A stretch of 64,000 nucleotides of DNA from the NCBI GenBank assembly GCA_017462385.1, contig JAFTRE010000004.1, positions 50,461 through 114,460 of the forward strand, written 5' to 3'. The translations under genes and the position numbers were made by a program. The stretch is from Clostridia bacterium. Lineage in GTDB: Bacteria; Bacillota; Clostridia; Oscillospirales; CAG-272. Positions 10,662 through 17,060 of this stretch are shown here, piece after piece (position 1 is the first letter of the stretch; each line of letters opens with the position of its first letter). The notes under the pieces are model-generated. The model was not told the origin of the DNA. It ran no database searches and saw nothing but the letters and a program-made list of their open reading frames with translations.

Positions 10662-10925
10662 TTATTCCAATATTCCCGCGTCGGACAGCTTTTTGATAAA
10701 ATCATCAACGTCACGGGAGGCACGTTCCTTATCAACGTCGTATTCGGCAAGCAACGCCTCAACAAGCGCCTCGCGATCAGTCTCCTCGGTCAGCTTTTCC
10801 CAAAGAAACGCGCCACAGCCGCCGAGCATCACGACACCCGCAAAATTGCGCGACAACTCACCTGTAGCCACCGCGACGGTATCATTTCCTATTTTGGACA
10901 GCACAAATCCGTTTTTTATTTTCAT
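10662..10925 (-). CDS. PqqD-like peptide-recognition (RRE) protein
   Basis: 87 residues from ATG 10925, chosen because GGAGG lies 8 bases upstream; an in-frame ATG at 10979 sits inside the promoter. The sequence MKIKNGFVLSKIGN, then VAVATGE, then FLWEKLTEETDREALVEALLAEYDV, then FIKKLSDAGIL follows the PqqD fold: three strands and then a winged-helix bundle. PqqD-family proteins bind leader peptides of ribosomal peptide products and hand them to radical SAM enzymes; many clostridial ones are free-standing. No maturation enzyme or precursor adjoins it, so its client is unknown. Confidence 0.75.
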   Translation of the reverse strand: MKIKNGFVLSKIGNDTVAVATGELSRNFAGVVMLGGCGAFLWEKLTEETDREALVEALLAEYDVDKERASRDVDDFIKKLSDAGILE

Positions 10926-10963
10926 TCTATCATCCTCCGATACAGTCAAAGCATATTGATTAT

Positions 10964-10992
10964 ATTTTACCATATCCAACGCCTTTTTTCAA
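10964..10992 (-). promoter_or_regulatory. Promoter of the PqqD-like gene
   Basis: On the minus strand TTGAAA (10992-10987), 17 bases, TAAAAT (10969-10964). Confidence 0.75.
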
Positions 10993-11019
10993 TAGCAACA
11001 ACAAAATTTAATAAATTAA

Positions 11020-11043
11020 GGGGCTGTGCCGAAGCACAGCCCC
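11020..11043 (-). terminator. Terminator of the dpp operon
   Basis: 10-bp stem GGGGCTGTGC / GCACAGCCCC with CGAA loop, 32 bases after the binding-protein stop, with a T-rich run on the minus strand. Confidence 0.85.
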
Positions 11044-11074
11044 CATATTTATAAGGTGAAGAGTCAACCTAACA

Positions 11075-12829
11075 TCAGTCGGTGATGTTGGAGTAGTACT
11101 TCTTCAGGGTCTCGATAGCGCTTGCAACGTTGCCTGCGTATGCATCAGCAGATACATCGTAGTAACCGTCGTAATCAGCGCTGTCGCCTGCGTTCTTGTA
11201 GAACTCGTTGCCGTCAGCGTCGGTCATACCCATAGCGACGAAGGAGGAAGCGGGAACCTGGCCGGCCTGTGCGATCTTATCAACAACATAGTTGCGGTCG
11301 ATAAGCAGAGCAAGTGCATTTCTGATCTCCTGCTGAGCCTTTTCCTTCTCAACACCGGTCAGGTCGCTGCCGGGGAGAAGATCCTCGTTGATGTTCCAGC
11401 AAACATAGTAGGTACCGATCTGACCTGCGATGACGAACTCGTCAGCGTAGTCGGTCTTCAGAGAAGCGATCTCGTTGGTGGGAACGTTGTCGATGAGCAG
11501 CCAAGAACCGTTCTTGAAGTTGGACAGCATGTTGTTAGCGTCGTCGGACAGGAACATCTTGATCTCGTTCATCTTAACGTTAGCAGCATCAAAGTAGTTA
11601 GCATTCTTGGTCAGAGTGATAACACTGTCATGCTCCCAAGCGGAGATGGTGTAAGCACCGTTGCAGATGTAGGTGGAGGGATCGGTTGCCCAAGCCTCGT
11701 TATCGTATGCGGAGGGGTGTACGGGGTAGTAGGTCGGGAATGCGAGCAGCTCGTTCCAGTAGGAAATAGCGTTGGAGATGGTGATGGTGATGGTTCTTGC
11801 AGCATCATCAGCGGTAGCGTTGAGCTTATCTGTGCCGTAGCCGTCAACGACCTCGAACATGTAGCCGTAGTCAGCACCAAGCTCTGCGGAAGCAGCGCGG
11901 TTCCAAGCGTCTACAAAGTGAGAAGCCTTGACCTCGTCGCCGTTAGACCACTTCATGCCTTCCTTAATGGTGTAGGTGTAGGTAACGGTGCCGTCAGCGT
12001 TAACAACGCCCTCGGGAAGAGACTCAGCAGCATCAGCAACGATAACGAGGTTGCCGTTAGCATCCTGAGCCCACTTAGCCAGACCGGAGAACAGGTGAGC
12101 GATCATGGTAGCACCGTCAACAGCACTGTTGAGAGCGGGGTCGAGGGTATCGGGCTCGGAAGCGAGACATACGGAGATGGTGTCGGTCTTGCCGGCAACG
12201 TCAGCCTGCATGAAGTACTTGTAGCCCAGAGGGTTGGAGTAGAAGCCGTTTACACTGTCATCGATCATGTACAGGTCTGTGTAGAAGTAAAGGGGAACGA
12301 TACAGCCGGTTTCCATCAGCATATCCTCTGCAAGGTGCATCATTGCATAACGATTGGTGGAATCGGTGCAGCTCTTGATTCTTGCGATCAGCACGTCATA
12401 GGTCTCAGCCCATGTGCCGTTCTCAACCTTATCGGAATAGCCATAGGGGGTAAGGTCGATGCTGTACATCTTAAGGTCGGCGTGTTCGCCCTTACCGAAC
12501 TGAACATCGTTGTTACCGGAATTAGATGTCCACATGTCGAGGAAGCAGATCGGGTCGTTGTAGTCAGCGAGCCAACCGTTTCTTGCGACAGAGTAGTCAC
12601 CATTCTTACGCGTGTTAAGGAAGGTGTTCCATTCCTGGTTCTGCAGGTTCATGGTGATGCCGGCAGCTGCGAATGCGCTCAGCAGATACTCACCGATCGC
12701 CTTGTGGTTGTCATCAGTGTTGTAGAGATAGGTCAGGGTAGGTGTGGTTACTGTGTCGTTCTTGCCGCCGCATGCAACGAGAGACAGCATCATAACAGCC
12801 AGAAGAACCACTGCAATAATTTTCTTCAT
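11075..12829 (-). CDS. Circularly permuted dipeptide/oligopeptide-binding lipoprotein (SBP family 5)
   Basis: 584 residues with a lipoprotein signal (LSLVAC, Cys 20) and an AAAGGA site. Residues 30-208 match the segment that normally ENDS family 5 binding proteins (PTLTYLYNTDDNHKAIGE, then NGDYSVARNGWLADYNDP, ending NPLGYKYFMQ). After a six-residue linker, residues 214-584 match the part that normally BEGINS them (TISVCLASEPDTLDPALNS, then YTIKEGMKWSNGDEV, ending SAIETLKKYY). The order of the two parts is reversed, with the cut at the usual linker before the last lobe, and nothing is missing or duplicated. It is the last gene of a complete importer operon, so it is probably the working binding protein. 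An assembly artefact cannot be excluded. Confidence 0.85.
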   Translation of the reverse strand: MKKIIAVVLLAVMMLSLVACGGKNDTVTTPTLTYLYNTDDNHKAIGEYLLSAFAAAGITMNLQNQEWNTFLNTRKNGDYSVARNGWLADYNDPICFLDMWTSNSGNNDVQFGKGEHADLKMYSIDLTPYGYSDKVENGTWAETYDVLIARIKSCTDSTNRYAMMHLAEDMLMETGCIVPLYFYTDLYMIDDSVNGFYSNPLGYKYFMQADVAGKTDTISVCLASEPDTLDPALNSAVDGATMIAHLFSGLAKWAQDANGNLVIVADAAESLPEGVVNADGTVTYTYTIKEGMKWSNGDEVKASHFVDAWNRAASAELGADYGYMFEVVDGYGTDKLNATADDAARTITITISNAISYWNELLAFPTYYPVHPSAYDNEAWATDPSTYICNGAYTISAWEHDSVITLTKNANYFDAANVKMNEIKMFLSDDANNMLSNFKNGSWLLIDNVPTNEIASLKTDYADEFVIAGQIGTYYVCWNINEDLLPGSDLTGVEKEKAQQEIRNALALLIDRNYVVDKIAQAGQVPASSFVAMGMTDADGNEFYKNAGDSADYDGYYDVSADAYAGNVASAIETLKKYYSNITD

Positions 12830-12923: not shown

Positions 12924-13913
12924 TTAATTAAGCTCCTCTACGCGATGGCAAGCGACAAAATGTCCCTTTTCGATCTCGCGAAACTCGGGCATCTCCTCGG
13001 CGCAACGCTCGCAGGCATGAGCACAGCGGGTGCGGAAGGGGCAGCCGGAGGGCGCATTGAGAGGAGACGGAATGTCGCCCGACAGCGGGATGCGCTGATT
13101 CTCGCGCGCGATCTTGGGGTCGGGCATGGGAACCGCCGACATAAGCGCCTTGGAATAAGGATGCAAAGGACGCTCGTATATCTCCGCGGCATCGGTAAGC
13201 TCGACCATTTTGCCGAGATACATGACTGCGATACGGTTACTGATATGGCGCACGACCAGCAGGTCATGTGCGATGAACAGATACGTCAGCCCCAGCTTTT
13301 CCTGAAGCTCGCCAAACATATTTATGACCTGAGCCTGAATGGACACGTCAAGTGCCGAAACGGGCTCGTCGCAGACTATAAACTCGGGATCGACCGCCAG
13401 CGAGCGGGCGATACCTATTCTCTGGCGCTGACCGCCCGAGAACTCATGCGCGTAACGCGATGCGTGCTCACTGTTAAGACCGACATGCTCCATCAGTTCG
13501 AGCACTCTTGCGCGGCGCTCCTCCTCGTTCTGATACATTTTGTGTATATCGAGCGGCTCGGCGATGATATCCGAGACAGTCATGCGGGGGTTGAGCGAGG
13601 AATAAGGATCCTGGAACACCATGGTCGCCTTTTTACGGAACTCATTGATGTCTGCCTTTGTTTTTATCTCGTGGCCGTCGTAAACAATATCGCCGGATGT
13701 GGGAGTATACAGGTGCAACAGTGTACGTCCTACCGTGGTCTTGCCGCAGCCCGACTCACCGACCAGACCCAGTGTCTCACCGCGGTTGATAGTAAATGAA
13801 ACATCATCAACTGCCTTGAGGGGGCGGGTCTTAAACATACCCGTGTTGATATCGAAATATTTTTTGAGGTTTCTGACCTCTACAAGAGGACTGTTATTTT
13901 GCTTTTCACTCAT
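12924..13913 (-). CDS. dppF: Dipeptide/oligopeptide ABC importer, ATPase F
   Basis: 329 residues from ATG 13913 (GGAGGAG upstream), overlapping the end of dppD by 8 bases, which implies coupled translation. Walker [10 protein letters not shown], signature FSGGQRQR, Walker [13 protein letters not shown], and the C-terminal Cys-rich motif [15 protein letters not shown] found in Opp/Dpp ATPases, where a 4Fe-4S cluster has been seen in some relatives. It powers uptake with the DppD protein. The assignment dpp versus opp is not certain. Confidence 0.93.
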
Positions 13914-14934
13914 TTTTGGTCTCCTCCTCACCGTTCGCGGGCGGATTTTCGAGCTTGCCGCTTTCCATCGCGTCCTTAACATTCATCCAGCAAGCCGCGT
14001 GATGATCGTCATTAATGACCATACGCTCTGCCTTGTGCTTTAAGCAGACCTTCATTGCCGCATCGCATCTGGGAGCGAAGGGACATCCCTCGGGCATATT
14101 GAGCAGGTCGATGGGAGTACCTGTGATAGGCTGAAGCCGCTGACCGAACGTGGTAGTAGTCGGAATGGAACGCATAAGTCCCTTGGTATATTCATGGCGG
14201 GGATTGTAGAATATTTCATCCGCTGTTCCCTGCTCACAAATTGAGCCTGCGTACATGACTATGACCTCATCGCACATCTGTGCAACGACGCCGAGGTCAT
14301 GAGTTATCATAATGATAGCCATGCCCAGTTCTTTCTGAAGCGAGGTCATAAGGTCGAGTATCTGAGCCTGAATGGTAACGTCAAGCGCAGTTGTCGGCTC
14401 GTCGGCAATGAGAATGTCAGGCTCGCAGGCAAGCGCCATTGCGATAACGACACGCTGTCTCATGCCGCCCGACAGCTCATGAGGATACTGCTTCATGCGC
14501 TTTTCGGGTTCATTTATATTGACCAGGCGCAGCATTTCCACTGCTCTGGCATGTGCTTCTTTTTTATTTCTGCCGGTGTGCAGCAGAATGGATTCCATGA
14601 TCTGATGACCGATGGTATGCGTGGGGTTGAGCGAGGTCATGGGGTCCTGGAATATGATGGACACCTTATTGCCTCTGACCTTACGCATCACCTTCTCGCC
14701 CGAGCCGACCAGCTCCTCGCCGTCAAGCTTGATAGAGCCGCCCACGATTTTACCTGTGGACGCCAGAATCTGCATGATGGAGTAAGCAGTGACCGATTTT
14801 CCCGAGCCGGACTCGCCGACGATACCCAGCACCTTACCTCTTTCGAGATTAAAGGATATACCGTTTACCGCCTTGACCTCGCCCGCGTCGGTAAAGAAGG
14901 ATGTATGCAGGTCATTTATTTCAAGTAATGCCAT
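13906..14934 (-). CDS. dppD: Dipeptide/oligopeptide ABC importer, ATPase D
   Basis: 342 residues. Walker [10 protein letters not shown], signature LSGGMRQR, Walker [14 protein letters not shown], and the C-terminal [15 protein letters not shown] motif. It forms the ATPase heterodimer with the DppF product, with which it overlaps. The preceding permease gene ends 43 bases upstream. The last residues (NGEEETKNE) are a short acidic tail. Confidence 0.93.
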
Positions 14935-14977: not shown

Positions 14978-16039
14978 TTAACCGTTGAGTTTGGGGTCGA
15001 ATGCATCGCGCAGACCGTCACCCAGCAAATTGAGAGACAGAACAATAAGCGAAATGACTACAGCGGGGATAACGAGTCTGTAGGGATACGAATTGATACC
15101 GTTAAGCGCATCGGACGCCAGCGAACCGAGCGAGGGCATAGGCGCGTTAACACCGAGTCCGAGGAAGGACAAATAGCTCTCGGTAAATATTGCGCTGGGG
15201 ATCTGAAGCGCGGTGGAAATAATGATAACACTGATACAGTTGGGCATGAGGTGCTTGAAGATTATCCACTTGCCGCGCGCGCCGGCAGCCTGAGATGCCA
15301 GCACATATTCCTGCTCGCGAAGTGACAGTATCTGTCCGCGGATAAGACGCGACATGGATACCCAATAAAGCACGCCGAACACTATAAACAAGCTGATAAT
15401 ATTAGCACCGATCTTTTCCAGCACCGTGCCTTGTATTATCTCATCCAGCTTTGTCTGCTTGAGCGCGGACGCCAGCAGTATGATAAGCAACATATCGGGC
15501 AAAGAATAAATGATATCGACGATACGCATGATGACAAGGTCTACCTTGCCGCCACAGTAACCCGAGATGGAGCCGACGGTCATACCGATGATAAGAACGA
15601 TGATGCTTGCGAAGAAACCGACAGCAAGCGAGATGCGCGCACCGTAAATTATACGGATAAAATAGTCACGTCCCTGAGAGTCGGTGCCAAAAACGTGCGG
15701 GAACACGGTTTCGCCCGCTGCAATTTTTGCCTGCTCGGTAGCGCCGTACTGGAAAGGCGCGAGGTTGTTATACGAGGCATCAACGGGCTTGCCGAGCTGA
15801 ACGCCCAGCATCTGGTCGTAAGAATACGGCCAAAAGAAAGGTATTATTATACAACTGAGTGTTATCAGCACAACAATTATAAGGCTGACAAGCGCCACCT
15901 TGTTTTTAACAAATCTTTTTACACCGTCACGGAAAAAGGTGGAGGAGGGGCGCATCTGCACCATATACTCCTTTTCCGATTCCGTTGCGGGATTAAACGC
16001 ATCAAGATCCAGATGCATGCTAAACATTTTTTTGTTCAT
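14978..16039 (-). CDS. dppC: Dipeptide/oligopeptide ABC importer, permease C
   Basis: 353 residues from ATG 16039 (AAGGAGCAAGGAA upstream; the longer frame has no ribosome site). A soluble N-terminal region with the OppC_N pattern precedes six membrane spans. The EAA loop, which contacts the ATPase, is EYVLASQAAGARGKWIIFKH, followed by SYLSFLGLGV. A loop of about 60 residues between spans 1 and 2 (QLGKPVDASYNN to VFGTDSQGRDYF) is typical of the C subunit. Confidence 0.93.
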   Translation of the reverse strand: MNKKMFSMHLDLDAFNPATESEKEYMVQMRPSSTFFRDGVKRFVKNKVALVSLIIVVLITLSCIIIPFFWPYSYDQMLGVQLGKPVDASYNNLAPFQYGATEQAKIAAGETVFPHVFGTDSQGRDYFIRIIYGARISLAVGFFASIIVLIIGMTVGSISGYCGGKVDLVIMRIVDIIYSLPDMLLIILLASALKQTKLDEIIQGTVLEKIGANIISLFIVFGVLYWVSMSRLIRGQILSLREQEYVLASQAAGARGKWIIFKHLMPNCISVIIISTALQIPSAIFTESYLSFLGLGVNAPMPSLGSLASDALNGINSYPYRLVIPAVVISLIVLSLNLLGDGLRDAFDPKLNG

Positions 16040-16058
16040 TTCCTTGCTCCTTTCCGAC

Positions 16059-16988
16059 TTACTCCAGCGTAATACGCGGGTCAATGACCTTATAGAGAAT
16101 GTCACTGACAAGGTTCATTATAACTATCAGAATGGCAAGCACTATGGTAGTACCCATGATAAGCGTATAGTCGCGGTTGATAATACTGCTGACGAAGGAG
16201 CGTCCGATACCGGGAACGGCAAATATCTGCTCAACGACCAGAGACCCGGTAACGATGTAAGCCAGCATGGGACCGAAATAGGTAATAACGGGAATGAGCG
16301 CGTTTTTGAGCGCGTGACCGAAAATTATTTTAATGCTCGAAACACCCTTTGCCTTAGCTGTACGGATGTAATCTTGACCGAGCACATCGAGCATGGACGA
16401 ACGGGTCAAGCGGGTAATATTAGCCATAGGCGACAGCGAAAGCGTAATTATGGGAAGAACAAGTCCGCCCGCCTCTGCGCCGTTTGCCGGGAATATAGCC
16501 AGCTGTACCGTAAACAACAACAGCATAAACGTACCCATAATAAACGAGGGCATTGAGACAAACGCGGTAGTTACTACCATAATAACACGGTCGATCAGTT
16601 TATTGCGTCGAAGCGCGGCGACAGAGCCGAGCACCGTGCCGCAGACGAGTGCGATTGCGGCGGCAGCAAGACCCAACTTTGCCGAGGTCTTCATACCGTC
16701 TGCAATAATATCAATAACCTCGCGTCCGCGCTGCTTGATGGACGGTCCGAAATCAAATTTTGTGACAATATCCTTGATGTAAGTAACATACTGCTGGAAC
16801 AGCGGCTTGTCCAAACCGTACTTTTCCTCGAGTGCGGCCTTAGCGGCTTCGGAGATAGCCTTTTCACCCAAAAAGGGACCGCCGGGAACCGCGTGCATGA
16901 CAAAGAAGGTGATAGTAATAACTATCCATACCGTCAAGAGTGCAAGCCCTATTCTTTTGAGTATGTAGCGTAACGTTTTAGTATTCAT
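16059..16988 (-). CDS. dppB: Dipeptide/oligopeptide ABC importer, permease B
   Basis: 309 residues from ATG 16988; a GTG at 16997 is an alternative start. First gene of the five-gene importer operon (dppB-C-D-F-binding protein). Six membrane spans, the N-terminal RYILKRIGLALLTVW segment that opens nearly all DppB proteins, and the EAA loop DYIRTAKAKGVSSIKIIFGH. It forms the channel with the DppC product. Confidence 0.93.
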   Translation of the reverse strand: MNTKTLRYILKRIGLALLTVWIVITITFFVMHAVPGGPFLGEKAISEAAKAALEEKYGLDKPLFQQYVTYIKDIVTKFDFGPSIKQRGREVIDIIADGMKTSAKLGLAAAAIALVCGTVLGSVAALRRNKLIDRVIMVVTTAFVSMPSFIMGTFMLLLFTVQLAIFPANGAEAGGLVLPIITLSLSPMANITRLTRSSMLDVLGQDYIRTAKAKGVSSIKIIFGHALKNALIPVITYFGPMLAYIVTGSLVVEQIFAVPGIGRSFVSSIINRDYTLIMGTTIVLAILIVIMNLVSDILYKVIDPRITLE

Positions 16989-17060
16989 TATCCACACCTG
17001 CTGCTTTCTTTTGGCGGCATACGCGCAGCTTTCACCTCACGCACACCGGATGTTCATTTT

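Follow-up and report, generated by a model that had tools for sequence, protein, structure and literature searches.

Family 5 binding proteins of the OppA/DppE type (cluster C) are represented by the solved chains 8ay0 (DppE), 8are (OppA), and 1b05 (OppA), which we take to come from B. subtilis and S. typhimurium; in OppA, the amino end of the bound peptide is presumably held by Asp419. As far as the excerpted text of the source papers goes, domain III is lobe 2 at residues 297–582 in AliD (PMC11192437, in which one passage swaps the lobe names) and spans 286–503 in BbOppA4 (PMC5736914), both chain ends lie in domain I in each protein, and aspartate D501 of AliD binds the peptide amino end (PMC11192437). 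Natural circular permutation has been described for a tethered binding protein of an ABC importer, in a different class: excerpts of PMC4990184 present TpMglB-2 (Tp0684) of Treponema pallidum, "Type Ic / Cluster Bc," as a permuted glucose-binding lipoprotein with homologs in Gram-positive gut bacteria, and its authors raise an adaptation to membrane anchoring. The fold of that protein is Type I/Cluster B, and the part that is permuted belongs to the N-lobe and has 13% identity to the E. coli counterpart (same excerpts), whereas the parts of the protein described here keep 63 to 74% identity to an unpermuted ortholog. Our protein falls outside the TpMglB-2-like class (Type Ic, permuted N-lobe sugar-binding fold), and the relation between the two is one of analogy, not membership. 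Within family 5, the titles and abstract openings of the open-access literature yielded no natural circular permutation, in agreement with a first-pass annotation of this DNA, which knew of none; the published permutant belongs to the other class (PMC4990184, in excerpt).

The gene under study lies in a 64,000-nucleotide stretch of a Clostridia draft genome (the window) and occupies positions 12829–11075 of the minus strand as one open frame of 584 codons, encoding a 584-residue OppA-type family 5 binding lipoprotein. PF00496, the sole family found in a Pfam scan, matches at 179 bits (gathering cut-off, 32.4), but in two inverted pieces: profile positions 282–367 fall in the 5′ part and 3–264 in the downstream part, so the canonical segment order of the family is broken. 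Phmmer searches against PDB sequences gave the same inversion, residues 15–340 of chain 8are (OppA) aligning with query residues 210–544, and residues 368–455 and 460–522 with query residues 29–114 and 147–209; it was also seen against solved DppE proteins, and among solved proteins the closest matches bind oligopeptides and dipeptides. A canonical profile built from 29 unpermuted relatives (583 positions) matched the window protein, in chain order, with positions 6–36 (15 bits), 405–582 (326 bits), and 36–400 (566 bits). Over the core positions 38–581 (n = 544), 4 were uncovered and none was doubled. Each segment is present once, with one joint of the native ends and one new opening, and we read the protein as a circularly permuted variant of the PF00496 family, not an ordinary member. 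The first-pass annotation had proposed just this, a C-terminal part moved to the front of a frame that is open throughout, with each segment present once and the signal peptide and lipobox kept ahead of the moved part; Pfam, phmmer, and the 29-relative profile bear out the permutation, and the sequence pattern around Cys20 the placement of the lipobox. The window protein, at 179 bits, misses the 947-bit cut-off of the NCBIfam OppA equivalog NF011684; since an unpermuted ortholog (L005) misses it too, at 194 bits, the model appears simply to be narrow.

The likeness to the OppA/DppE type extends to all segments, the GW..DYNDP motif that binds the peptide N terminus, the signal peptide, the lipobox, and the position in an oppBCDF operon. 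The differences are that the native C-terminal 180 residues come first, that the native ends are fused, and that the lipid anchor would sit on lobe 2. In one respect the earlier proposal has to be corrected: it placed the break in the linker before the last lobe, whereas residues 30–208 comprise the second half of lobe 2 (domain III) together with the last segment of lobe 1, which puts the cut within lobe 2. Table 1 lists the parts of the gene and its neighbors.

Table 1. Features of the permuted gene and its operon in the window
Feature	Position	Strand	Basis
Signal peptide, residues 1-19, before the moved part	12773..12829	-	Sequence; profile 6-36, 15 bits
Lipobox cysteine, residue 20 (LVAC), expected lipid anchor	12770..12772	-	Sequence pattern; lipidation inferred
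Tether linker, residues 21-29, from Cys to first strand of moved part	12743..12769	-	Sequence
Moved part, residues 30-208, natively C-terminal, profile 405-582	12206..12742	-	Pfam, phmmer, canonical profile
Joint linker, residues 209-213, from native C terminus to native N-terminal strand	12191..12205	-	Sequence
Natively N-terminal part, residues 214-579, profile 36-400, covering lobe 1 and the first half of lobe 2	11093..12190	-	Pfam, phmmer, canonical profile
New C-terminal tail, residues 580-584, and stop codon	11075..11092	-	Sequence
OppF/DppF-type ATPase	12924..13982	-	PF00005 and PF08352
OppD/DppD-type ATPase	13906..14934	-	PF00005 and PF08352
OppC/DppC-type permease	14978..16111	-	PF00528 and PF12911
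OppB/DppB-type permease	16059..16997	-	PF00528 and PF19300
Terminator-like hairpin, 11 pairs, after the binding-protein gene	11019..11044	-	Pattern only

A false order could arise in assembly or binning if tandem genes were collapsed or pieces misjoined, and the source is a draft (32 contigs, 83% complete; one other family 5 gene was matched, on another contig) of a kind that can be misjoined. Against this, the order of the window protein, which we call type A, recurs colinearly over nearly the whole protein at 64 to 88% identity in other metagenome-assembled genomes (MAGs) from several projects. In a family search covering 395 genomes, with the three best candidates of each genome scored and matches taken to 1e-20, type A was found in 13, the genome of the window included; 11 are colinear from residue 1 to 579–584 and two match partially (G227 and G276). 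An order search of 394 genomes added 7 more. By record title, type A comes from at least three projects (RGIG, SIG, and horse faeces), and all permuted genes with titled records are from MAGs. The joints are in frame and have been kept through divergence among relatives, and a search for direct exact repeats within the coding sequence found none of 14 bases or longer, which leaves an assembler little to jump on. Collapse of a tandem pair was rejected on the shared order and the lack of such a repeat, and we consider an artefact of any of these kinds extremely improbable, independent assemblies having refuted it. The annotation had looked to other genomes for the same order, which is now found, and had named breaks at the junctions as one way in which its proposal might fail; the agreement among independent MAGs speaks against any such break. 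As many related gut bacteria carry the same swap or one with another cut, the rearrangement is real and conserved, not a sequencing error.

Mapping of all ORFs on the canonical profile resolved three permuted orders within the ortholog group. Type A runs from 405–582 to 36–400, with limits varying by a few positions (24 full-length distinct sequences and one partial, L118; 0 to 9 of the 544 core positions uncovered, none doubled). Type B runs from about 310–582 to 36–312 (12 full-length; 0 to 2 uncovered, 0 to 8 doubled), and type C from about 500–582 to 36–492 or so, with its cut near 495 (17 full-length and one partial, L170; 4 to 29 uncovered, none doubled). The partial sequences L053, L087, L118, and L170 stand outside the full-length counts; two of them, L053 and L087, were not captured by the automatic start test but resemble, in their segments, B and A, respectively. 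The 43 loci from a search of genome contigs comprise 14 of type A, 10 of type B (one of them partial), 16 in canonical order, and 3 that are truncated or fragmentary; type B is found in RUG and TPA records as well. Type B includes three MAGs labelled Coriobacteriaceae (L051, L052, and L066), so by these labels the permutation crosses phyla. Permutation is patchy and becomes rare farther from the window: in the phylum sample, 13 of 398 genomes match at 1e-50, 10 of these are listed with loci, and permutation is confined there to the window and G788 (type B); in a class search with a type C query, 70 of 341 genomes match at 1e-70, and among the 20 loci listed L147 and L148 are type C, the others placed by profile being canonical. 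The several cut points within one ortholog group are the surprising part of these data, which go beyond the first-pass annotation in showing that the permutation is widespread, has three cut sites in this group, and has a counterpart in a second subfamily.

The permuted window gene is the last of five minus-strand genes in the order OppB, OppC, OppD, OppF, binding protein, PF00528 occurring twice and PF00005 with PF08352 twice; the complete Dpp/Opp operon recognized in the first pass is borne out. Hairpins of the pattern found behind it occur at 10 sites in the scanned region, against 5.8 expected from shuffles. Just past the hairpin lies a 105-aa ORF (10662–10979, minus strand) with, by eye, the look of a PqqD-type peptide-binding protein. 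A genome of the same family (G011) carries an unpermuted ortholog of 644 codons, likewise placed after OppF, with a single-piece profile match (3–582); it is this protein to which the window parts show 63 to 74% identity by segment. Two ordinary tandem binding-protein genes in relatives, which would have spoken against permutation, were not seen in the stretches examined, where one gene, permuted or unpermuted, follows OppF. There are three exceptions. In two Coriobacteriaceae-labelled MAGs (L052:5794–9574 and L066:5821–9583) the type B gene is followed by a further, divergent binding-protein gene of canonical order and a second opp-like set of its own; the type B genes of both have, by eye, a twin-arginine-like signal. 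In the third genome (L176:3957–4601, identical with L135:2951–3595), a remnant of a divergent binding protein, covering profile 373–582 only, directly follows the type B gene, a hint of tandem paralogs at the locus. A 215-aa ORF after the type B gene in G456, considered as a leftover half, was rejected as such, being a divergent paralog remnant.

To place the cuts on a structure, we counted by hand on a printed alignment with chain 1b05 (OppA), which puts them at about 285/286 for type B, 351–360 for type A, and 441–445 for type C, with the motif aspartate at residue 419. If domain III of 1b05 spans 271–486, as we assume, the type B cut is close to its start. All cuts found appear to map to lobe 2 (domain III), and the joints to connect native ends within lobe 1; with the lobe-1 ends joined and the cuts in lobe 2, the lipid anchor would move to lobe 2. 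The stretch from the cysteine to the TLTYLYN strand is as short as seven residues (in L080), so the lipid would hold this lobe close to the membrane. Conservation suggests that the fold is kept, and anchoring by lobe 2 would follow from the order of the segments. In the E. coli DppABCDF structure, according to excerpts of PMC12136057, DppA is touched on both of its lobes by helices of the DppB scoop motif, so a change of the tethered lobe could alter docking.

A second subfamily is permuted as well, with a cut near the type C point. The 737-residue protein L100 (G030) matches AmiA, AliB, AliC, and AliD (E 2e-72 to 7e-66) over their residues 4–506, where the match stops, and its N-terminal block has a weak likeness to the C-terminal ends of AmiA and AliB (independent E 0.075 and 0.2). 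Used as a profile of 11 relatives, this block matches residues 503–632 of the four solved proteins (E 3e-11 to 3e-9), the next match having an E of 0.14. AmiA, AliB, AliC, and AliD, all solved and unpermuted, are the closest solved relatives of the L100/L187 group, which differs from them in carrying the native C-terminal block at the N terminus and ending at WGPD[YF]GDP..YL.... A search of 196 genomes with L100 gave 20 matches at 1e-60 or better, of which 18, counting L100, show the permuted layout; of the other two, L201 is truncated at the 5′ end and L205 has a canonical-like end. Downstream of L100, on its strand, are OppB- and OppC-like genes. The cut falls after AliB chain position ~501; because the aspartate numbered D503 in PMC11192437 (in excerpt) is chain position 477, this corresponds to about residue 527, which would lie inside domain III if the AliD limits hold.

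The usual route to circular permutation is tandem duplication, fusion, and trimming of both ends, and the genes described here may have taken it. Similar joint linkers, such as VDGKTD and VDGKGD, occur in many A and B genes, and linkers akin to that of the window in other type A genes; they would fit a single fusion followed by different trimming, although this is only suggestive. A profile search over the ORFs of 186 loci found no fused duplicate of order N-C-N-C. Three long frames considered as double copies (L068, 1148 aa; L073, 1125 aa; and L125, a 1129-aa frame) were rejected, each holding one copy only; by eye, those of L068 (4252–7695) and L073 (4315–7689) have a canonical family 5 domain after dockerin-type repeats and a second, type I-like binding domain, so that a single chain would carry two binding folds.

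The tree of binding proteins (re-ordered sequences, 68 rows) needs seven changes of type. In AU tests, with groups chosen after the first tree, a single clade for A was not rejected (p = 0.211) and a single clade for B was weakly rejected (p = 0.0253). An OppF tree of 101 rows, with bootstrap unsettled, needs nine changes, its starred branches forcing three for A, two for B, and two for C, and again puts the type B sequence L135 together with L054 and L112, both canonical. Ten changes are required in a quick 67-row OppF tree; 67-row trees with A or B held together are even better (p = 0.673 and 0.58), and neither single clade is rejected. We therefore limit the claim to a minimum of at least one event per cut type in the ortholog group and one in the AmiA/AliB-like subfamily. 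The canonical-order gene L149:1354–3108 branches among the type C sequences in the binding-protein tree and in the OppF tree alike and may represent a reversal, a replacement, or a second gain.

With regard to function, the moved part of the window protein contains GWLADYNDP, which aligns with GWCADYNEP of 1b05, so the aspartate motif of OppA-type proteins is present. Written as [GAS]W.{1,2}[DN][YFW].[DE]P, the motif occurs in every type A protein (24 of 24), every type B protein (12 of 12), and all 7 operon-linked type C proteins, as well as in 66 of 90 canonical rows, many of them distant relatives. An OppF homolog lies upstream on the same strand, within 367 bases, of all 24 type A and all 12 type B genes, and within 567 bases of 7 of the 17 type C genes. 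Ten divergent type C genes of one genus (g94; L090–L099) have neither the motif (0 of 10) nor, in the stretches examined, Opp neighbors, so some permuted genes may not encode peptide receptors. These ten are possibly orphan receptors or sensors; the neighbors of L091 resemble, by eye, DegV, an alpha-galactosidase, and FtsW.

The window gene differs from L034 with dN 0.069 and dS 0.46 (dN/dS about 0.15), and by part with dN 0.070 and dS 0.56 in the moved part and dN 0.058 and dS 0.42 in the other. Compared with L036, dN is 0.12 and dS 0.80; compared with L043 as a whole, dS is saturated. The motif, the linkage to OppF, and this purifying selection make a working peptide receptor the best reading of the gene. 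Some copies do decay, the type C locus L170 (G485) appearing as two ORFs, and the window gene might likewise be a rearranged pseudogene out of use; its open frame, lipobox, motif, low dN/dS in both parts, and conservation over many genera make this very unlikely.

Based on these data, the window gene very probably encodes a functional oligopeptide-binding lipoprotein of the OppA type that has undergone circular permutation during its evolution. Its order, conservation, operon, purifying selection, and motif are observed directly, and they suggest the following picture. A short linker would join the native C- and N-terminal ends, both in lobe 1; the chain would be reopened in a lobe 2 loop just before the strand TLTYLYN; and a signal peptide with a lipid-anchored cysteine would stand at the new start. 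The protein would adopt the usual Venus flytrap fold with its two lobes, bind the free amino end of peptides through the aspartate kept in GWLADYNDP, and pass the peptides on to OppBCDF, the importer encoded in its own operon, while tethered by lobe 2 rather than lobe 1.

The new order may also have no functional consequence, being tolerated and spread by drift and operon transfer, a reading that is compatible with the picture above but opposes any meaning of the tether. In the trees, type A and type B genes are scattered among canonical orthologs whose operon context they share; tolerance of many cut points is conceivable, given that a single domain holds both native ends; and a canonical gene stands within the type C clade; on the other hand, every cut found is in lobe 2 and none in lobe 1, and two subfamilies are permuted. 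The confinement of the cuts to lobe 2 may itself reflect ascertainment bias, as the search started from a lobe-2 cut. We put this neutral course just short of an even chance. More tentatively, and as a possibility that we do not hold to be probable, gut Clostridia and Coriobacteria may repeatedly, by selection, have moved the anchor from lobe 1 to lobe 2, with at least three cuts in one group and a further event in the AmiA/AliB-like proteins.

Because Pfam reports plain family 5 matches and hides their order, such permutants may go unnoticed elsewhere. The two orders, still close in sequence when compared segment by segment, share a locus and an operon, a situation that suits tests of how permutation arises and what it costs, and the several cut points in one ortholog group make the route by duplication testable. 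Natural permutation points could also guide biosensor design. These proteins offer a natural handle on whether, in lipid-anchored ABC importers, the tether-bearing lobe matters for docking and peptide transfer; if the selective reading is true, ABC importers would have their lipid-bearing lobe as a tuned property, and nature would have run, in the family 5 binding proteins, an experiment on recurrent circular permutation.
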